NCBI RefSeq assembly: GCF_007993045.1
Contig: NZ_VOOR01000009.1
Location: 62,001 to 126,000 of the forward strand
DNA from: Phaeodactylibacter luteus
GTDB lineage: Bacteria > Bacteroidota > Bacteroidia > Chitinophagales > Saprospiraceae
Length of the DNA: 64,000 nt
Direction of reading: 5' to 3'
Shown: piece after piece, positions 2,985-62,017 of the stretch
Layout of the letters: each line of letters begins with the position of its first letter
Position numbering within the stretch: the stretch's first letter is position 1
The notes under the pieces: generated by a model
Seen by the model: the letters and a program-made list of their open reading frames with translations, nothing else
Databases searched by the model: none
What the model was told of the DNA's origin: nothing
Translations under genes and position numbers: made by a program

Positions 2985-5900
2985 ATGAAGCCACAAAGAA
3001 AGCGATTTAAGAAGCTACTGGTCGCCAACCGGGGCGAGATTGCCATCCGGGTGCTGCGCGCCGCATCTGAGCTCAACCTGCGCACCGTTGCCATATACAC
3101 CTATGAAGACCGCTACTCCCTGCACCGCTACAAAGCGGACGAGGCTTATCAGGTTGGCGCAGATGATGACCCCCTCAAGCCTTACCTCGACATTGAGGGG
3201 ATCATTCAGATAGCCCGCGAGAACGAAGTGGACGCCATACATCCGGGCTACGGCTTCCTTTCGGAAAATGTCAACTTCGCCCGCCGCTGCCGGGAAGAAG
3301 GCATCGAGTTTGTCGGCCCCAGCCCCGAAAGCATGGAGCGGCTGGGCGACAAAGTAGCGGCCAAAGCCCTTGCCCGCCAGGAAGAAGTGCCCCTCATCGA
3401 AGACAGCCAAGAGCCATTGGCAGATGTGGAGACCGCCCTGCGCGAAGCAGCGCGCATCGGCTATCCTATCATGGTAAAAGCAGCAGCCGGCGGTGGCGGC
3501 CGGGGCATGCGCGTAGTGCGTTCAGCCGATGGCCTTCCTGCTGCCTTCCAAGAAGCCAAGCGGGAAGCGGGCAACGCCTTTGGCGATGACACCATTTTCC
3601 TCGAAAAATTCATCGACCAGCCCAAGCACATCGAAGTGCAGCTCCTAGGGGACAAATACGGCAACCTTGTGCACCTCTACGAAAGGGACTGCTCTGTGCA
3701 GCGACGGTTCCAAAAGGTGGTGGAAGTCGCCCCCTGCCCTTCCATCAACGAAGTGACCAAACAAAAACTGTACGACTACGCCATCCGCCTCGGCAAAGCG
3801 GTCAACTACAGCAACGCCGGCACCGTAGAATTTTTGGTAGACCGCAACGAGAACATCTACTTCATTGAAGTGAACCCCCGCATACAAGTAGAACACACCA
3901 TCACAGAAGAAATAACGGGGGTTGACATCGTGCGCTCGCAGATCCTCATTGCCATGGGGTACGAGCTGAGCCATCGCACCATTTACATCCGAAACCAAGA
4001 TGATGTGGAGTGCAGTGGCTTCGCCGTGCAGTGCCGGGTCACTACAGAAGACCCCAGCAATGGCTTCAAGCCAGACTACGGCACCCTCATTGCCTACCGC
4101 TCTGCCTCTGGCATGGGCATCCGCCTCGACGCAGGCAGCGCCTTCCCCGGAGCAAAAATCTCGCCCTACTTCGACAGCATGCTGGTGAAAGTGACCGCCT
4201 GGGGCCGTACCCTCAAAGGCGCTTCCCAGCGCCTGCACCGCGCCCTGCGCGAGTTCCGCATCCGCGGCGTGAGCACCAACATCGGTTTCTTGCTCAACCT
4301 ACTGCAGGACGAGACCTTCCAAAGAGGGGATGCCACAGTCAATTTCATACAAGACCACCCGGAGCTGCTCGCTATGCCGGATTGGCGCGACCGGGGCACC
4401 AAGCTCTTGCGCTACCTGGCAGAGGTGATCGTCAACGACAACCCCGATGTCAAGTTCAAAGACCCGAGCAAGATTTTCCTAGAGCCGGTAGTCCCCTCCT
4501 TCGACCCCCTGGCCACCCCGCCGGATGGCACCCGGCAGATACTCCAAAAGCTGGGCCCGGAGCGGTTTGCTCAATGGCTGAAGGAACAAAAATCTATTCA
4601 GTACACGGACACGACCTTCCGGGATGCCCACCAATCGCTTTTGGCCACCCGTATGCGCACCTACGATATGGAGAAGGTGGCCCACAGCTTTGCCCAGCGC
4701 CATGCCAACGATGTATTCTCTATGGAAGTATGGGGCGGTGCCACCTTCGATGTCGCTATGCGGTTCTTAAAGGAATGCCCGTGGAAACGGCTGGAATTCC
4801 TACGGGAGGCCATCCCTAATATCTGCTTCCAAATGTTGCTGCGGGGCTCTAATGCTGTAGGCTACACCGCCTACCCCGACAACCTTATCGTTAAGTTTGT
4901 AGAAGAGGCTGCCGCCGCCGGTATCGATATCTTCCGGATCTTTGACTCCCTCAACTGGGTAGAGGCCATGAAGACCAGCATCCGCGCGGTGCGCGAGCGC
5001 ACCAACAGCGTGGCCGAAGCTTGTATCTGCTATACCGGCGACATCACCGACCCCAAGCGCGCCAAATACAACCTACAGTACTACATCGATCTTGCGCGGC
5101 AGCTGGAAGACGAAGGCGCTCACATCATTGCCATCAAAGACATGGCAGGATTGCTGAAACCGCTTGCCGCACAGGAGCTCATCGGGGCCCTGCGCAGCCA
5201 TATCGAAGCACCTATACATCTGCATACCCACGATACCTCTTCCATACAGGCCAGCACTTATATTAAAGCCATAGAGGCTGGGGTAGATGTAGTGGATGTC
5301 GCCATCAGCTCTATGTCTGGCCTCACCTCACAGCCCAGCTTCAACGCCGTGGCCGCCATGATGCAACAGCACGAACGGGAGCACCCTGTAGACCTGCATT
5401 CGCTCAATGAGTTCTCCACTTATTGGGAAGCCGTACGCCGGTACTACTACCCCTTCGAGACAGAGCTGCGCGCAGGCACAGCCGAAGTCTATGAGCACGA
5501 AATCCCCGGTGGGCAGTACTCCAACCTGCGGCCCCAAGCGCGGGCGCTCGGGCTGGAAGAACAGTTTGAGGCCATCAAAAAGAACTACCGCATCGCCAAT
5601 CAGCTGTTCGGCGATATCGTCAAAGTGACGCCTAGCTCCAAAGTAGTGGGCGACATGGCCATGTTCATGACCGCCAACAACCTCACGGAGCAAGACATTT
5701 TCGAAAAAGGGGACAAGCTCGCTTTCCCAGATAGCGTAAAAGCGCTGATGAGGGGCGACCTGGGGCAAACCCCGGGCGGTTTCCCTGAAAAAATCCAACA
5801 GCTCATCCTCAAAGGCGAAAAGCCGTATACGGAGCGGCCTAATGCCCACCTCGAGCCTGTCGATTTTGACAAGGAGGTCCCTGCATTCCGGCAAAAATTC

Positions 5901-52713: not shown

Positions 52714-52739
52714 AAAAAAGCCTGCAGCAAGCTGCAGGC
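52714..52739 (-). terminator. Intrinsic terminator after aceA
   Basis: GCCTGCAG (52720-52727) pairs with CTGCAGGC (52732-52739). On the minus strand the hairpin ends in six T (complement of 52714-52719). It lies 38 bases after the aceA stop. Confidence 0.75.
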
Positions 52740-52777
52740 CGGACCAATCGAAACCAGTATTGTCTGAAAACTCAATT

Positions 52778-54061
52778 TTAGTGGGCGAACTGCGCCTCCT
52801 CCGTGCTGCCTTTCATAGCCACAGTGGAAGAGTTGCCTTGCTGCACTGTATTCTGCACATAATCAAAGTAGGTCGTGCCTACAAATGCCTGATGCTTCAC
52901 CGCTTGGAAGCCAGCCCCTTGCAAGGCAAACTCCCGCTCCTGCAGCTCGCTGTAGCCTGCCATGCCCCGTGCCTTGTAAGCTTGTGACAATTCGAACATG
53001 CTCGTATTCAGGGCATGGAAGCCAGCCAAGGTGATGAACTGAAAGCGGTACCCAAGGGCGGCGATGTCCTCACGGAAAGTCAGCATCTGCTTTTCGCTCA
53101 GGTTGGCGGCCCAGTTGAAAGAAGGCGAGCAATTGTAAGCCAGCAGCTTGCCCGGGAATTGCTCGTGTATAGCCTGTGCGAACTCCCGTGCCTGCCCAAG
53201 GTCAGGGTTGGAGGTTTCCATCCACAACAGATCGGCAAAAGGGGCGTAAGAGAGCCCACGGCTGATGGCTTGTTCTACACCGCACCTCACCTCGAAAAAG
53301 CCTTCAGAAGTGCGCTGTTGGCTGGTGACAAAGGGGCGGTCTCGCTCATCGATATCTGAAGTCAGCAGGCTGGCCGCATCAGCATCGGTACGGGCGATGA
53401 TGACCGTAGGCACCCCTGAGACGTCGGTTGCGAGGCGGGCAGCGACCAATTTATTAATGGCCTCCTGTGTTGGCACCAAGACTTTCCCGCCAAGGTGGCC
53501 GCACTTTTTGGCAGAAGACAGCTGATCTTCAAAGTGCACCCCGGCAGCCCCCGACTCGATCATGCCGAGCATCAGTTCATAGGCATTGAGGTTGCCCCCG
53601 AAGCCAGCCTCTGCATCGGCAATGATGGGCACCATATAATCGGTATTCCCCTGCCCGCTCACCGACTGTATCTGATCGCGGCGTCGCAGGGCGTTGTTGA
53701 TGCGGCGTACTACATTCGGTACGGAATTAGCGGGGTAGAGCGACTGATCGGGGTACATCGTCCCAGCCAGGTTGTTGTCCGCTGCGACCTGCCAGCCACT
53801 AAGGTAGATGGCATCTAGCCCGGCGGTCACTTCCTGTACCGCCTGATTCCCGGTCAGGGCACCGAGGCCTGCCACCCAATCCTGGGTGTGCAGCTTGTGC
53901 CAGAATTTCCGAGCCCCTTCCCGGGCAAGGGTATACTCCATGTTGACGCTGCCACGCAGGCGGAGTACGTCCTCCGCGCTGTAAGGGCGCTCAATACCCT
54001 CCCAGCGAGGGTTGGTCAGCCAATCGGCTTTCAGTTGCTGAATACGGATGTCTTGCTGCAT
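52778..54061 (-). CDS. aceA: Isocitrate lyase
   Basis: The 427-residue enzyme splits isocitrate to glyoxylate and succinate, the first step of the glyoxylate shunt. The active-site motif KKCGHLGGK has C187, and the metal-binding [14 protein letters not shown] and [10 protein letters not shown] segments are typical. Length is normal for the bacterial class. It lies downstream of aceB on the same strand with a 117-base gap, so it may be co-transcribed with it; a terminator follows. The frame opens at 54139, but the ATG at 54061 is the family start. Confidence 0.97.
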
Positions 54062-54178: not shown

Positions 54179-55792
54179 CTAGTCGATCAGCTCGTAGGCC
54201 GGCAGGGTCAGGAACTCGATGTACTCGTCCGAGCGGATCAGCTGGTCGAACAGCTCAATAGCTTCCGGGAAACGCCCTTTTGCGTAAGCATCCGCCCCGA
54301 CGTAGCTTTCGATTTTCTGCAACTCCTCGGGCAGCAGGCTTTGGCACAGCTCATAGGTAATCGTGCGCCCGTCGTCCAATTGGGCACCGGCTTGTATCCA
54401 CTGCCATACTTGTGTCCGTGAAATTTCTGCCGTAGCGGCATCTTCCATAAGGTGGTAAATGGCCGCAGCGCCCTGCCCCCTGAGCCAGCTTTCGATATAC
54501 AGTATGCCCACGTTCATATTGAGGCGCAGCCCAGCCTCGGATATGCTGCCCTGAGGGGGTGTCAGCAGGTCGTTGGCAGATACAGCGACATCTTCCCGTT
54601 TGTTGCTGATCTGGTTTTTTTGTGGCATGTACTCATCGAATACCGCCATTGCGATTGGCACCAGCCCAGGGTGGGCAACCCAAGTGCCGTCGTGCCCGTC
54701 CTGTGCTTCTCGGAGCTTGTCCTTTCGCACCTTCTCCAATGCAGCGGTATTGGCCGCGTCATCGCCCTTGATGGGGATCTGAGCCGCCATGCCGCCCATA
54801 GCGTGCACCCCACGGCGGTGGCAAGTTTGGATCACAAGCTGAGAATAGGCCTTCATAAAGCCAACGCTCATTGTGACCTGTGCCCGGTCGGGCAAGACAT
54901 AGCCTTTAAGGTTGCGCAGCTTTTTGATGTAAGAGAAAATATAGTCCCACCGTCCGCAGTTCAGCCCGGCAGAGTGGCCGCGCAGCTCGTACAATATTTC
55001 GTTCAGCTCAAAAGAGGCCAGGATGGTCTCAATGAGCACTGTGGCCTTGATGGTCTGTTGGGGTATGCCGAGGAAGTCCTGCGCAAAGACGAACACATCG
55101 TTCCACAACCGGGCTTCGAGGTGGCTTTCCAGTTTTGGGAGGTAAAAATACGGCCCAGAGCCATTGGCGAGCAGGCTCCGCACATTGTGGAAAAAATAGA
55201 GCCCGAAATCAGCCAAGGCACCGCTCATCGGCCGCCCATCAGCCAGCAAGTGCTTTTCCAGCAGGTGCCAGCCCCGAGGCCGCACGAGCAGTACGGCGGT
55301 CTGTTCGTTGAGGCGGTAAGATTTGCCCCTGCGGGCATCTTCAAAGGAGATATCCCGGTTGATCGCGTCCCTAAGGTTGATATGGCCGCTGATATTGTTG
55401 TGCCAGTTTGGGGTATTGCTGTCCTCAAAGTCGGCCATAAAGCACTTGGCGCCAGAGTTAAGCGCATTGATAACCATTTTGCGGTCTACGGGCCCGGTGA
55501 TCTCTACCCGCCGGTCGAGCAGGTCGGGCGGCAGTGGGGCCACCTTCCAATCGCTTTCACGGATGTGGCGGGTCTCGGGCAGGAAATCGGGCAATTGCCC
55601 CTCGTTTATAGCTTGCTGCCGGGCCTCACGGGCCTCCAGCAGTTCACACCGGCGCTCATCAAATTGGCGGTGCAAGGCCAGCAGAAAGCGCTGTGCATCT
55701 TCCGTTAGGATTTCGGCGAAAGCCGGCTCAAAAGTGCCTGTAATCTCCAGGCCTTCAATTTTTGGATAAGCGGTTTGTGTCATGGTCTCCAT
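54179..55792 (-). CDS. aceB: Malate synthase A
   Basis: The 537-residue enzyme condenses glyoxylate with acetyl-CoA to malate. Signatures: [54 protein letters not shown] (metal and substrate sites) and the [12 protein letters not shown] segment. Length agrees with the A isoform (about 530), not the 720-residue G isoform. Upstream gene of the shunt pair, divergent from the RamB-like regulator. ATG 55792 is used; an in-frame ATG at 55783 is possible. Confidence 0.97.
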
Positions 55793-55870
55793 CGCAAATA
55801 TTTTTCAGCTTTTAGCAGCCTGTTGGTAGCCAGCTGCCGGTCTATTGAGCACCCCACGGTGCGTAATTCT

Positions 55871-55940
55871 TCCACAATATCAAAAAACTATTCAAAAAGC
55901 GGAAATTCCGCTAATAGAAAATTTAATCTTTTTTTGTGGA
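55871..55940. promoter_or_regulatory. Concentric inverted repeats between aceB and the regulator gene (probable operator)
   Basis: Inner palindrome AGCGGAA-A-TTCCGCT (55898-55912), centred at 55905, is enclosed by an outer inverted repeat TCCACAA (55871-55877) / TTGTGGA (55934-55940), centred at 55905.5. The outer right arm overlaps the -33 box of the regulator promoter. The flanks are A/T rich. Confidence 0.55.
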
Positions 55941-55964
55941 TTTAGTTTAGCAGGCGTACATTTC
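55933..55964 (+). promoter_or_regulatory. Promoter for the RamB/ScfR-like regulator
   Basis: TTTG (55933-55936), 20-base spacer, TACATTTC (55957-55964; seven of eight to TAnnTTTG). Its -33 box lies within the outer inverted-repeat arm, which would allow repression by a bound protein. Confidence 0.55.
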
Positions 55965-56080
55965 CGTTTAGAAAAATCAGGTACTGCAATGCCCAGGCCG
56001 CTTTTGCGCGGGTTTGGGCTGCGGAAATAAAACTTTAGGGCCCGCCCGCAACCGGGCTGCCCTGCCTAACCAAGTGCGAT

Positions 56081-57568
56081 ATGGTCGACCCACAAGATGT
56101 CATCAAGATGATTTTTGGCTTCAAAGCCAAATACCTGCGGCAAAAGCTGGGGCTCTCCCTAGAAGAGCTGGCAGAGCGCGCCCACCTGTCCAAGTCTTAC
56201 CTCCACGATATCGAAAAAGGGAAGAAGTACCCGAAGGTGAATAAGATACAAGCCCTCGCAGCTGCATTGGGGGTAGATTACGACTACATGGTCTCCACGC
56301 GGGCGTCCAAAAAACTACAGCCCATCGTTGACCTGCTGACTTCTGACTTTATCAAGGAGTTCCCGCTAGATCTTTTTGGGATCAGCCCCGAAAAGCTATT
56401 TGAGCTGTTTTCTAATACCCCGGACAAAGTGAACGCCTTCATCAGTACAATCTTTAAGATCACGCGAAACTATCAAATGCAGCGGGAGCATTTGTACTTG
56501 GCTGCCCTTCGGTCTTATCAAGACATGTACGACAACTACTTTGCGGATTTGGAAGCTGCCGTTAAGGCCTTTAGGGAAAGTACTGGCCTTTATGCATCGC
56601 CGGGCAGCCCGCCGGAAGTGTTGGAACAAATACTCCAAGAGCGGTATGGCATCCGGACAGACTATACGGCCATGCCCAGGGCTGCAGAGCTGCGCAGCCT
56701 CCGCTCTCACTATCAGCCGGGCAGCAAAACGCTTTTCATCAACCGGGGGCTAAGCCCGGCACAAACCCGCTTTCTCCTCGGCCGGGAGCTGGCGTTCCAA
56801 TACCTGGAGCTTGGCGAGCGCCCCTATTTCACCCGTATTATAGAGATAGACTCTTTCGAGCGCCTGCTCAACAATTTCAAGGCCTCCTATTTTGCGGTAG
56901 CCCTGATGATGGATGAAGCGCATATGATAGCCGACCTGAAGGGCTTGGCAGGGCAGGCAGAATGGCGCCCTGAGCTGATTTCCGGCCTGCTGGAGCGGTA
57001 TGATGTTACCCCGGAGATGCTGCTGCAGCGCTGGAGCAACCTATTGCCACAGCATTTTGGCATTAAAGACTTGTTTTTCATCCGGCTTGTGGGGGCAGCT
57101 GGGCTACAGCATTTCCGGATGACAAAGGAGCTGCACCTTTCACAGATGCACAACCCTTATGCCAATCAGATGAACGAGCACTACTGCCGGCGCTGGGTTT
57201 CTGTCAACCTCATCAAGCAGTTGAAATCGGGGCAGCATACAGGGAGTGCCCCCATCATTGATGCGCAAATTTCGGAATACTGGCAGACCGACAACCGCTA
57301 CCTCTGCATCTCTCTGGCCAAGCCCGACTTCCATCAGCCGGAGCAGGGCGTGAGCGTCACGATAGGGCTGATGATCAACGAGCAGCTACGGCGGCATTTC
57401 AGGTTTATCGACAGCCCGGGCCTGCCTTCCCGCCTGGTACATACCACCTGTGAGCGGTGTGGCATCAGCGACTGCGAGGCACGGGCCGTCGCTCCTACAG
57501 TGCTGGAGCAACAACGGGCGAAAGAGGAAATATTGCGGGCAGGAGCAACGCTGCGGGCAGGAGGCTAG
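56081..57568 (+). CDS. XRE-type regulator with short-chain fatty acyl (RamB/ScfR-like) domain
   Basis: The 495-residue protein has an N-terminal HTH of the XRE class (about residues 16-70: LRQKLGLSLEELAERAHLSK and YLHDIEKGKKYP). The middle region is IrrE-like but lacks an HExxH zinc motif (RELAFQYL at the equivalent place). The C-terminal DUF2083-like region has the cysteine pattern TTCERCGISDCEARA. This layout is that of RamB/ScfR regulators. RamB of Corynebacterium is known to control aceA and aceB. Here the gene is divergent from aceB across 288 bases with concentric inverted repeats, so control of the glyoxylate shunt and of itself is a good inference. Confidence 0.87.
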   Translation: MVDPQDVIKMIFGFKAKYLRQKLGLSLEELAERAHLSKSYLHDIEKGKKYPKVNKIQALAAALGVDYDYMVSTRASKKLQPIVDLLTSDFIKEFPLDLFGISPEKLFELFSNTPDKVNAFISTIFKITRNYQMQREHLYLAALRSYQDMYDNYFADLEAAVKAFRESTGLYASPGSPPEVLEQILQERYGIRTDYTAMPRAAELRSLRSHYQPGSKTLFINRGLSPAQTRFLLGRELAFQYLELGERPYFTRIIEIDSFERLLNNFKASYFAVALMMDEAHMIADLKGLAGQAEWRPELISGLLERYDVTPEMLLQRWSNLLPQHFGIKDLFFIRLVGAAGLQHFRMTKELHLSQMHNPYANQMNEHYCRRWVSVNLIKQLKSGQHTGSAPIIDAQISEYWQTDNRYLCISLAKPDFHQPEQGVSVTIGLMINEQLRRHFRFIDSPGLPSRLVHTTCERCGISDCEARAVAPTVLEQQRAKEEILRAGATLRAGG

Positions 57569-57811: not shown

Positions 57812-59650
57812 CTACTCACCTTTAGCGCGCTCCATGGGCGGCAGCAAGGGGGCGCTTTTATCTTGGTGGGGCTCCATATCCTTCAAGATGCGGTCAAGGA
57901 GGCGTACAGCGTCGAGGATGTAAGGCCCTTTGTTGAGCATAACGCACTCAGCTCGTTGTGCCATCACTGCATCCGTGATTTCTGCCCGTGAAGGGATGCC
58001 CTTTTTCGCCAAGTTCTCTAAAACTTGCGTAGCCCAGATGTCGGGCAAATGAGCGGCCTGGCAGAGGGCCTGGATTTCTTCCTGTACCCGGCCAATATTC
58101 TCCCAGCCGCATTCCACAGCGAGGTCGCCCCTGGCTATCATGACCCCGACCGGATAGGCCTGCATCCCTGCGAGTAAGATTTGCGGCAGCTGGTCAAACC
58201 CCGCCTGAGTTTCTATTTTTAGGATAACGCCGAGCTGGCCTGTAGCGCCTAGCCCGTCAATGGCTTGCAGCAGCTCATCCACATCGGCTGCACTATTGAC
58301 GAAGGACAGGTTAACCACGTCTGCATGAGCCGAGACGAAAGGTAGATCTGCCCGGTCTTTTTCAGTGAGCCCGCTGATTTGAAGGCAGCTTTCAGGAAAA
58401 TTCATGCCTTTGTCTGCCCTAAGTAAGCTGCCGCCCGCCTTCGCCTGCTGTACCTTGGCCACAAAATGAGTGGGCTCAGCGGCCACAATTTCGGCTCTGA
58501 TTTTGCCGTCGTCGAACAACACAGGCTCCCCTACCCTCACAGAATCAAACACCTCTGGGGCTGTACAAGAGATGCAAGCAAGGGCAATCTGCTCCCCTTC
58601 TAGGCTGTACTGTGCGTTCTGTCCTGGCCGCCCGTCGCGGTACACTGCGAGCTCATCGCCCGGTTTTAACAAGATAGCGGCTTCAGCCGCCGGCAGTCCG
58701 CTAACAGCAAAAGCCGCTTTTTCCATGCTGGGGCTGGTAAAGAGGTAGCTGCCGTTTTCCAGATAAAGGGTACGGGAGGAGGCAGCCCAAACGCCCTGCG
58801 GCGACCAATCGGAAAGGGGCAGTTCCCTACTGCGTGCGCGTGTATCTGACAACCATATCGCAGGCTGGCCTTGCAAAGCTGCAACTTGTGTAATCGTAGC
58901 AGGTAGATGGAAAGCCCCTTTCTCGACGGGGGGCTGCGGGCCAATCCAAATGCGCGCAGGCTCAACGACCTGCCCCCAGGCATCTCGCTTAGGCTTGAAG
59001 CGGCGCACGGCGGGCCCAGGCAATAGGGCTCCGGTACGGATTTTAGGCCCGGCAAGGTCCATGGCCACTTGGCATCTGCAGCCCAAAGCTTCAGAAGCTT
59101 TCCGGACGTGAGCAATCATTTGCGCCCACTTTTCAGGACCATCATGGGCACAGTTGATCCGGGCACAGTTCATGCCAGCGCGCAGCAGTGCCTCAACCAT
59201 AGTATAGTCCTCGGCAGCCTCAGAAGGCAGGGTGACCATGATACGAGCGCGGCGCCCCTCAGTGCGATAGCCGAGCAGCTCCCGGGTATGGGTGCGTACG
59301 ACTGTAGTGGCCTCAGGTATACTGAGCCCTGCTGTGCCGCCAAGCTGCAGGGGCACTTCGTTCGACAGAGATTGTAGGGCAGCTTCGGCTGTATCGAGGC
59401 TGGCCAGGACATGGCCTTCTGCCCGGGCTAAGCGGGAGAGCCCCATCTGGCCGAGGCTGCGCTGCAAGGCCCGGATATCGAAGGTGCGCAAGGCACGATA
59501 ATGGACCAGGTTGCGGGCGGAAGGCTGCAGGCGCGGACAGGTACGCTCCACGGCATCAGCGTAGCGAGCTTCCATCTGTAGGGCATGGGCTTTGATTTCC
59601 TGGATTTGTGACAGCATCTGCTGCAGCACGTCCTTTTCGGGTATGATCAT
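57812..59650 (-). CDS. Atypical pyruvate kinase (N-terminal extension, no C-terminal regulatory domain)
   Basis: The 612-residue protein has a helical extension of about 130 residues, then a pyruvate kinase barrel. Motifs: ARIMVTLPSEA and GMNCARINCAHDG (near 135-170), MDLAGPKIRTG in place of the usual LDTKGPEIRTG, an enlarged B-like domain, LKIETQAGFDQLP (the catalytic lysine is kept), MIARGDLAVE and IWATQVLENL. It ends soon after the barrel with MLNKGPYI and lacks the usual C-terminal allosteric domain. A TAT-to-WAT change is seen in the T-A-T-Q loop. It may be a PEP-using kinase with altered control. Its start overlaps the HD gene as ATGA. Confidence 0.85.
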   Translation of the reverse strand: MIIPEKDVLQQMLSQIQEIKAHALQMEARYADAVERTCPRLQPSARNLVHYRALRTFDIRALQRSLGQMGLSRLARAEGHVLASLDTAEAALQSLSNEVPLQLGGTAGLSIPEATTVVRTHTRELLGYRTEGRRARIMVTLPSEAAEDYTMVEALLRAGMNCARINCAHDGPEKWAQMIAHVRKASEALGCRCQVAMDLAGPKIRTGALLPGPAVRRFKPKRDAWGQVVEPARIWIGPQPPVEKGAFHLPATITQVAALQGQPAIWLSDTRARSRELPLSDWSPQGVWAASSRTLYLENGSYLFTSPSMEKAAFAVSGLPAAEAAILLKPGDELAVYRDGRPGQNAQYSLEGEQIALACISCTAPEVFDSVRVGEPVLFDDGKIRAEIVAAEPTHFVAKVQQAKAGGSLLRADKGMNFPESCLQISGLTEKDRADLPFVSAHADVVNLSFVNSAADVDELLQAIDGLGATGQLGVILKIETQAGFDQLPQILLAGMQAYPVGVMIARGDLAVECGWENIGRVQEEIQALCQAAHLPDIWATQVLENLAKKGIPSRAEITDAVMAQRAECVMLNKGPYILDAVRLLDRILKDMEPHQDKSAPLLPPMERAKGE

Positions 59651-60198: not shown

Positions 60199-60230
60199 AC
60201 GCGTTTTTTTTTGCAATAGACGAAAAAAAT

Positions 60231-60554
60231 GGGAAAGGGGGAAAGGGGAAAGGGGGAAAGGGGAAAGGGGAAATAGGAAGTAGGAAATGGGAAAGGGGAA
60301 ATAGGAAGTAGGAAATAGGAAATGGGAAGGGGGAAATAGGAAATAGGAAGTAGGAAATGGGAAGGGGGAAATAGGAAATGGGAAGGGGGAAAGGGGAAGG
60401 GGGAAATAGGAAGGGGGAAATAGGAAGTAGGAAATAGGAAATGGGAAAGGGGAAGGGGGAAATGGGAAGGGGGAAATAGGAAGGGGGAAATGGGAAATAG
60501 GAAGTAGGAAATAGGAAGTAGGAAGTAGGAAATAGGAAAGTGGGAAAGTGGGAA
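60231..60554 (+). repeat. Degenerate 7-bp tandem repeat, purine-only plus T (GGAAATA-type)
   Basis: 324 bases made of about 45 heptads such as GGAAATA, GGAAGTA, GGAAATG, GGAAAGG and GGAAGGG. The plus strand contains only G, A and periodic T, with no C until the tract ends. A few 8-base units occur near the left end. It fills the divergent region between the HD hydrolase and MATE genes. A 185-codon minus-strand frame through it encodes only a P/F/L/S low-complexity sequence and is rejected. Confidence 0.9.
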
Positions 60555-60604: not shown

Positions 60605-62017
60605 ATGCAAAGCAATCACCTGACAACTATTATGAAGAAAATCGTAGCCCTTGTGCGACAGGCACTCTCAGGCCAAGAGGAAGATTACACCCAAGGCAGC
60701 ATACGCCGTGCAATTGTACTGCTATCCATCCCAATGATTATGGAAATGGCAATGGAGTCGCTCTTTGCCGTGGCCGATGTCTTTTTCGTATCGCGGGTAG
60801 GAGTAGCTGCTGTGACTACAGTAGGGCTGACGGAGTCTGTAGTCACCCTCATATATGCCCTGGCGATAGGGCTCAGCATGGCTGCCACTGCTATGGTATC
60901 GAGACGGATTGGGGAAAAGCGGCCAGAGGCAGCGGCACAAGCAGCGGCACAAGCTATGCTGATTGCCCTAGGCGTGAGCACCGTATTGGGCATACTCGGG
61001 GTTTGGTTCGCTGCCGACATTTTAAGGCTGATGGGCGGCACTGCAGAAGTGGTGGCGATGGGCACGCCTTACACCCGCATCATGCTTGGCGGAAACCTCG
61101 CAATCACATTTTTATTCCTGTTGAACGGTATCTTCCGAGGAGCTGGCGATGCAGCGATTGCAATGCGCTCTCTTTGGATTGCCAACCTCATCAATATCGC
61201 CCTAGACCCTATCTTTATTTTTGGCTGGGGCCCCATTCCTGAGATGGGCGTCACCGGTGCAGCCATAGCAACGACCATTGGGCGGAGCGTAGGCGTGCTT
61301 TATCAGTTGTACATTCTTTTTGGGCCCAAAGGGCGTATACAGCTCGACGGGCGCGCTTTCCTCCCAGCACCACATCTGCTCGCCAAGCTGGGCAAGATAG
61401 CGGCTACGGGTGCCGGGCAGTTTATGATCGCCTCAGCCAGTTGGATTTTCCTAATGCGCATCATCGCCACCCTTGGCAGTGAAGCCGTCGCCGGTTATAC
61501 GATTGCGATCAGGCTCATCATTTTCACCATTTTGCCTTCTTGGGGCATCTCCAATGCAGCAGCGACCCTTGTAGGCCAAAACCTTGGCGCCGGGCAGCCC
61601 CAAAGGGCTGAGGAAAGTGTGTGGAAAGCAGCTTGGTATAATATGATTTTCCTCTTCAGCGTATCCCTGGTTTATTTTGCCGGCTCGCACCAAATCTTAA
61701 GCTGGTTCGATACCAACCCCGCCGTACTGGAAGCCGGAGTTACAAGCCTGCGCATTATCTGTACAGGGTATATTTTCTTCGCCTATGGCATGGTGATCAG
61801 CCAAGCCTTCAATGGGGCTGGGGATACCCGTACCCCTACCTGGGTCAACTTCATCTGCTTCTGGCTACTAGAAATCCCCTTGGGCTATCTGCTAGCGGTA
61901 ACGCTTGGCTGGGGCTTGGCCGGCGTATGCTGGTCCATTGCGATCAGCGAAACCGTGCTCGCAGCTTTGGTAGTCCTGATATTCCGGAAAGGAAAGTGGA
62001 AAACAACAGAAATATAA
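60605..62017 (+). CDS. MATE-family multidrug/sodium or proton antiporter
   Basis: The 470-residue protein has twelve predicted membrane segments. MATE features: SIPMIMEMAMESLFAVADVF near the start, AMVSRRIGEKRPEAA, FRGAGDAAIAM, LVGQNLGAGQPQRAEE and FNGAGDTRTPTWVNF. It exports cationic or other toxic compounds in exchange for Na+ or H+. I chose ATG 60605 because GGAGAGGGGT lies directly before it; an in-frame ATG at 60632 lacks a ribosome-binding site. It faces the heptad-repeat tract. The 275 bases after it hold only a TATATTTG box (62078-62085). Confidence 0.92.
   Translation: MQSNHLTTIMKKIVALVRQALSGQEEDYTQGSIRRAIVLLSIPMIMEMAMESLFAVADVFFVSRVGVAAVTTVGLTESVVTLIYALAIGLSMAATAMVSRRIGEKRPEAAAQAAAQAMLIALGVSTVLGILGVWFAADILRLMGGTAEVVAMGTPYTRIMLGGNLAITFLFLLNGIFRGAGDAAIAMRSLWIANLINIALDPIFIFGWGPIPEMGVTGAAIATTIGRSVGVLYQLYILFGPKGRIQLDGRAFLPAPHLLAKLGKIAATGAGQFMIASASWIFLMRIIATLGSEAVAGYTIAIRLIIFTILPSWGISNAAATLVGQNLGAGQPQRAEESVWKAAWYNMIFLFSVSLVYFAGSHQILSWFDTNPAVLEAGVTSLRIICTGYIFFAYGMVISQAFNGAGDTRTPTWVNFICFWLLEIPLGYLLAVTLGWGLAGVCWSIAISETVLAALVVLIFRKGKWKTTEI

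Follow-up and report, generated by a model that had tools for sequence, protein, structure and literature searches.

A locus of comparable layout is known from Paracoccus denitrificans. There RamB, a class 2 RamB of the ScfR family, is also encoded divergently from malate synthase-isocitrate lyase and activates aceB from the divergent intergenic site, where two near-identical boxes lie 18 bp apart (PMC10370305). Mycobacterium tuberculosis PrpR, the prototype of IsaR (PDB 6CYY/6CYJ/6CZ6), regulates the methylcitrate cycle through a double palindrome of 17 bp whose half-site is TTTGC(A/G)AA; MtPrpR activates and MtRamB represses icl1 (PMC6765138). The RamB proteins of Corynebacterium glutamicum and M. 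tuberculosis control the glyoxylate shunt. That of C. glutamicum has the motif A(A/G)AACTTTGCAAA (PMC4448153) and many target genes.

The aceB locus of Phaeodactylibacter luteus differs from each of these. Unlike P. denitrificans, it has one compact palindrome, of 18 or 19 bp depending on the lineage and in some lineages accompanied by one extra half-site, and its promoter overlap suggests repression. Its regulator is linked to aceBA rather than to the methylcitrate cycle, and its operator differs from that of PrpR in spelling and spacing. The consensus, TTAGCGGAA-W-TTCCGCTAA, is not the C. glutamicum motif and occurs as a single site in the genome. Little has been described of how Bacteroidota regulate the glyoxylate shunt, PEP carboxykinase and fatty-acid oxidation, and our literature searches turned up nothing on this regulator family in the phylum.

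The regulator and its neighbours

The window (the whole 64-kb stretch of DNA analysed) carries the following genes and motifs at the locus.

52719..52740, minus strand: terminator-like hairpin after aceA, 9 pairs and a T run
52778..54061, minus strand: aceA, isocitrate lyase (NF011645, 733 bits against a cut-off of 562)
54179..55792, minus strand: aceB, malate synthase A (TIGR01344, 831 bits against a cut-off of 594.5)
56081..57568, plus strand: ScfR/IsaR-type regulator, 495 aa, with HTH_3, an IrrE-like (M78) domain and a PrpR-like C-terminal half (Pfam and fold)
56189..56218, plus strand: recognition-helix region of the HTH, residues 37-46, SKSYLHDIEK
57449..57475, plus strand: C-x2-C-x4-C motif CERCGISDC, Cys457/460/465

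The regulator is divergent from aceB, and the two share an intergenic region of 288 bp. A strong hairpin follows aceA and no terminator-like site lies between aceB and aceA on the minus strand; thus, aceA is probably in one operon with aceB. Beyond the regulator and convergent with it lies a pyruvate kinase-like gene (57812-59650, minus strand, 612 aa), whose best match to the Pfam PK barrel covers residues 358-573. Its place near the regulator is curious, as it is the glycolytic counterpart of pckA. A G/A-rich tandem array (60227-60554; 8.4 copies of a 35-bp unit with a 7-bp subrepeat) directly precedes an ORF at 60605 that we judged by eye, from its translation, to encode a MATE-like transporter.

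By its predicted structure, the regulator is a diverged member of the ScfR/IsaR group. The HTH_3 domain (PF01381, 6.9e-15, residues 17-69) is present in 36 of 36 aligned relatives, and the middle domain is IrrE/M78-like (PF06114, 5.2e-9). The AlphaFold2 model (mean pLDDT 84) best matches M. tuberculosis PrpR (6cz6/6cyy/6cyj; Foldseek E ~1e-11, VIA Z 24.7-25.1). The like fold takes in residues about 137-470 of the regulator, and the top VIA match has a Z of 25.1 and an rmsd of 3.8 over 288 residues at 19% identity. Both proteins have a C-x2-C-x4-C motif, which is invariant in our alignments A1 and A2 and which in PrpR (Cys447/450/455) holds a [4Fe-4S] cluster (PMC6765138). Cys457, Cys460 and Cys465 of the regulator are thus likely [4Fe-4S] ligands, as predicted from this motif. 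Cys369 (EHYCRRW) is also invariant in relatives. The fourth cluster ligand of PrpR is Cys363, in its GAF-like domain.

Sequence profiles place the protein at a distance from the named families. A profile of its C-terminal region (A3) matched no PDB sequence. PF09856, the Pfam C-terminal domain of ScfRs, has no match in the regulator at the gathering score and in 14 of the 36 relatives reaches no better than E 0.005 to 1; this Bacteroidota branch falls outside the curated model, and we therefore claim membership of the fold superfamily only. Against the RamB equivalog NF038139 the regulator scores 40.2 bits, a weak match far below the cut-off of 700, and we do not class it as a RamB equivalog. 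Together, these results make it a diverged member of the PrpR fold family. The original prediction had assigned it to the group of RamB: the RamB/PrpR (ScfR/IsaR) superfamily holds by fold and cysteine motif, and close kinship with RamB is not supported.

The intergenic palindrome

Between aceB and the regulator we distinguish the following elements.

55871-55877 and 55934-55940: outer inverted repeat, TCCACAA and TTGTGGA
55874..55881, minus strand: probable aceB -7 box GATATTGT, inside a conserved CCRCAATAT block
55896..55914, no strand: candidate operator AAAGCGGAAATTCCGCTAA, 19 bp, genome-unique and conserved in relatives
55898..55912: perfect inner palindrome AGCGGAAATTCCGCT (AGCGGAA-A-TTCCGCT), core of the 19-bp element
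55933..55936, plus strand: possible regulator -33 box TTTG, not conserved among relatives
55957..55964, plus strand: probable regulator -7 box TACATTTC, with counterparts in two relatives

The inner arms (AGCGGAA 55898-55904, TTCCGCT 55906-55912) are as originally described. Of 2000 dinucleotide-shuffled versions of the 288-bp region, 161 (8%) contain a perfect palindrome with 7-bp arms, and there are 17 across the window. Thus, the window alone is no proof of function, and comparison between genomes has to supply it.

We searched 58 relatives for homologues and aligned the intergenic regions of those that have the pair. Relatives with the closest homologues have the identical divergent aceB-regulator arrangement. 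Their intergenic regions share two conserved blocks, TTAGCGGAA-W-TTCCGCTAA and CCGCAATAT, and the 19-mer sits between aceB and the regulator in all close relatives having both genes. Phylogenetic footprinting, which the original prediction had named as decisive, thus came out in favour of the inner palindrome. A scan of named genomes found the divergent pair in Hymenobacter, Fulvivirga, Chitinophaga, Flavihumibacter, Reichenbachiella, Arcicella, Flectobacillus, Marivirga and others; in almost all of them, the palindrome belongs to the same half-site family and is 18 or 19 bp long. The 18-bp form, TTAGCGAA-WW-TTCGCTAA, occurs in most of them (e.g., Hymenobacter, Fulvivirga, and Arcicella), and the 19-bp form in Saprospirales, Chitinophagia and Reichenbachiella. 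Eight of the 80 fetched loci have no such site in the stretch scanned; in several of these neither aceB nor pckA adjoins the regulator. From this comparison, we take the inner palindrome for a real element of deep conservation and a putative operator.

The operator is unique within its genome. A search for further copies of the inner 15-mer, as had been suggested, found one exact copy in the 6.0-Mb genome. Allowing one mismatch added none, and allowing two gave a count close to that of the reversed control. The full 19-bp element likewise has one copy per genome in P. luteus and related genomes (reversed control, at most 1). With up to two or three mismatches allowed, other matches to the aceB operator are about as numerous as in the control, and so we claim no wider regulon for it. 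We consider it very probable that the adjacent regulator uses the inner palindrome as its operator, a prediction from sequence that holds whether the protein represses or activates.

Promoters, outer repeat and proposed mode of control

The outer repeat is best read as two promoter elements that are near-symmetrical by accident. The original prediction had combined the inner and outer repeats into one concentric operator overlapping the regulator promoter. Both outer arms exist, as does the string TTTG (55933-55936)-N20-TACATTTC (55957-55964), and the right arm does overlap this -33 box. The centres of the inner and outer repeats, 55905 and 55905.5, differ by half a base, so the two are not exactly concentric, and the outer one is not conserved as an inverted repeat in relatives. 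Their aligned intergenic regions retain the left arm within the CCGCAATAT block, on the aceB side of the operator; at the right-hand position they have neither conservation nor a partner. In 128 of 5000 flank shuffles (2.6%), a 7-bp outer repeat arose whose centre lay no more than one base from the inner one, and pairs of boxes are frequent in known ScfR sites. Such a composite site is nevertheless highly improbable given the half-base offset and the partnerless left arm, and we reject the outer repeat as an operator.

Most of the outer left arm falls in the region of the probable aceB -7 box. Bacteroidota -7 boxes read TAnnTTGY or TAnnTTTG (PMC7366714, PMC9723704), the former from Flavobacterium psychrophilum. 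The CCGCAATAT block resembles these, and its register relative to the operator is that of the pckA -7 box at a paralogous locus; the block is thus most simply the aceB -7 box. A sigma-70 scan (TTGACA/TATAAT) gave nothing useful, as expected for Bacteroidota. Among 36 distant loci with the 18-bp form, 17 have a perfect TAnnTTTG aceB -7 box exactly 29 bases from the operator centre, and 26 have an extra half-site, GCGAA, between this box and the palindrome, at 17 or 18 bp. In Hymenobacter and its relatives, the palindrome edge CAAGCGAA provides a -33-like CTTG.

On the regulator side, counterparts of the -7 box (TACTTTTG at L003 and TACATTTG at L005) lie at the same distance from the operator centre, about 51 bases. 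The possible -33 box lies 18 bases downstream of the end of the inner palindrome. The operator is therefore clear of the regulator promoter, contrary to the original proposal; what it overlaps is the predicted aceB promoter. Relative to the aceB start, predicted near 55869, it covers roughly -27 to -45, including part of the -33 region.

The position of the repeat also bears on whether it acts as RNA. A simple scan flags a terminator-like site on the minus strand (55912-55898), which would make the repeat an attenuator or a hairpin terminator. Both genes have their probable -7 boxes downstream of it, however, so that neither transcript would include it. Furthermore, the one or two central bases of the repeat leave no normal loop, its letters themselves are conserved rather than pairing alone, and sites of the same family also lie in front of unlinked genes. 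We rejected the terminator on these grounds and regard an RNA element of any kind as exceedingly unlikely.

We propose that the regulator controls the divergent aceBA operon locally, with the palindrome as its DNA operator. It would bind as a dimer, or as half of a tetramer, and touch both TTAGCGGAA half-sites with the N-terminal helix-turn-helix. Bound there, it would block RNA polymerase at the aceB core promoter. The block would be lifted when the PrpR-like C-terminal domain binds a metabolite, most likely an acyl-CoA signalling growth on acetate or fatty acids; the ligand is probably of this kind by the precedent of PrpR.

Repression of aceBA is somewhat favoured over activation, since the operator lies over the aceB core promoter. 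In distant relatives, palindrome and extra half-site together cover the core promoter, an occupancy as for a repressor. Activation has to be taken seriously as a rival, since both P. denitrificans RamB, at its divergent ms-icl operon, and MtPrpR are activators. The same regulator, bound near -36 of aceB with an inducing acyl-CoA, would then recruit RNA polymerase, and the Phaeodactylibacter aceB promoter does lack a good TTTG at -33, the operator occupying that place. Against this, full occupancy of the Hymenobacter-type arrangement, with its extra half-site and its CTTG within the palindrome edge, would cover the core promoter. We therefore rate activation as possible and somewhat the less probable mode.

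Placement between divergent genes suits the proposal that one site serves both aceB and the regulator. Control of the regulator's own gene from this site may be weaker or indirect in this lineage. Relative to the regulator start, predicted near 55969, the operator sits at about -64, so that autoregulation suggests itself less readily than at pckA or in Hymenobacter; it is possible, and less certain than the original prediction had it.

Paralogous regulators and their candidate operators

The P. luteus genome encodes two further full-length homologues of the window regulator, each with its own palindrome.

L046, contig C223, 4919-6424, plus strand: pckA-linked paralogue, 56% identical, divergent from pckA
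L046, contig C223, about 3145-4758, minus strand: pckA, divergent from this paralogue
L047, 4188-5651, minus strand: stand-alone paralogue, 42% identical, with an 18-bp site at its own start

The site between pckA and its regulator is TTAGAGAAAATTTCTCTGG. In the pckA clade, a perfect palindrome, TTAGAGAAA-A-TTTCTCTAA, occupies the same position in 8 of the 8 loci first compared and recurs at further named loci of the clade, usually with an extra TTTCTC half-site adjoining it. The P. luteus genome has one site of this type. Outside this clade, a few pckA-linked regulators (L120, L135, L150) have the common 18-bp form instead. The extra half-site keeps a fixed distance, 11 bp before the core at pckA and 17-18 bp at Hymenobacter-type aceB. 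This constancy hints at a third contact with the DNA, which a tetramer could provide.

The stand-alone paralogue has a broader set of sites. Its 18-bp TTWGCGAAWWTTCGCWAA site, whose TTTGCGAA resembles the PrpR half-site (PMC6765138), occurs 12 times in the genome (L061-L072), against 0 in the reversed control. These sites mostly adjoin beta-oxidation genes and the regulator's own gene. The neighbours include two acyl-CoA dehydrogenases (one with twin sites), a 3-hydroxyacyl-CoA dehydrogenase, a 2,4-dienoyl-CoA reductase-like enzyme, an ETF subunit, an iron-sulfur protein, an aldehyde dehydrogenase, a fatty-acid hydroxylase-like protein and a TonB receptor; which gene is the target is ambiguous at some of the sites (ETF, symporter). 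In P. xiamenensis, we counted 10 such sites at no more than one mismatch (control, 0), and 7 of the 8 fetched adjoin orthologues of the same genes. Across 31 Saprospirales genomes, we counted 85 18-mer sites in the 19 with a full-length family regulator and 4 in the 12 without (p = 4.5e-6, only a guide because these genomes share ancestry).

These data also address whether an unlinked regulator binds the aceB palindrome, the adjacent gene being incidental. Linkage by itself is no proof of binding. Each of the three paralogue groups has its own operator at its own gene, however, and the 18-mer counts track the presence of the regulator family. Furthermore, in one relative (L056) 2.3 kb of other DNA parts aceB from the regulator, and each gene retains its own palindrome. 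This makes an unlinked regulator very unlikely and argues for the adjacent one.

Operator form follows the regulator phylogeny. We mapped it onto a tree built without the DNA-binding domain: all 19-bp forms fall within one well-supported clade, and the 18-bp form is found everywhere else. The recognition-helix region differs systematically between paralogue groups whose operators differ. Within the 19-bp clade, the (N/S)E that follows SY(L/V) becomes mostly H(D/N/S) or ND, with exceptions at L002 (HE) and L113 (NE), and its pckA group has Ala at the helix start and GAGAAA half-sites. At L013, which falls elsewhere on the tree than this clade, the aceB-linked regulator has the common helix and the common 18-bp operator. 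This pattern suggests that recognition helix and operator length change together. The switch from 18 to 19 bp occurred about once on the tree rather than in many independent events, so this covariation is suggestive and not proof.

We moderately favour a joint reading in which one ancestral Bacteroidota regulator gave rise, in Saprospirales, to three paralogues with mutually distinct operators. The beta-oxidation regulator would have kept the 18-bp spelling and its roughly 12 sites, and the 19-bp GCGGAA (aceBA) and GAGAAA (pckA) operators would have one site each. At the split, the operator would have changed in length by one base pair, and the recognition helix would have changed to match. 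The three would form an insulated control chain from fatty acids through acetyl-CoA and the glyoxylate shunt to sugar.

The regulator family itself is known; the operator, the three-way split and the fat-to-sugar role in Bacteroidota appear to be undescribed in the literature searchable here. The outcome is a set of operator sequences and named cultured species, with a clear prediction for each. The paralogues offer a natural case of duplicated regulators that may escape cross-talk through half-site letters and operator length. Together with the aceBA operator, the palindromes of the sister regulators at PEP carboxykinase and at fat-burning genes outline a putative fat-to-sugar control network.
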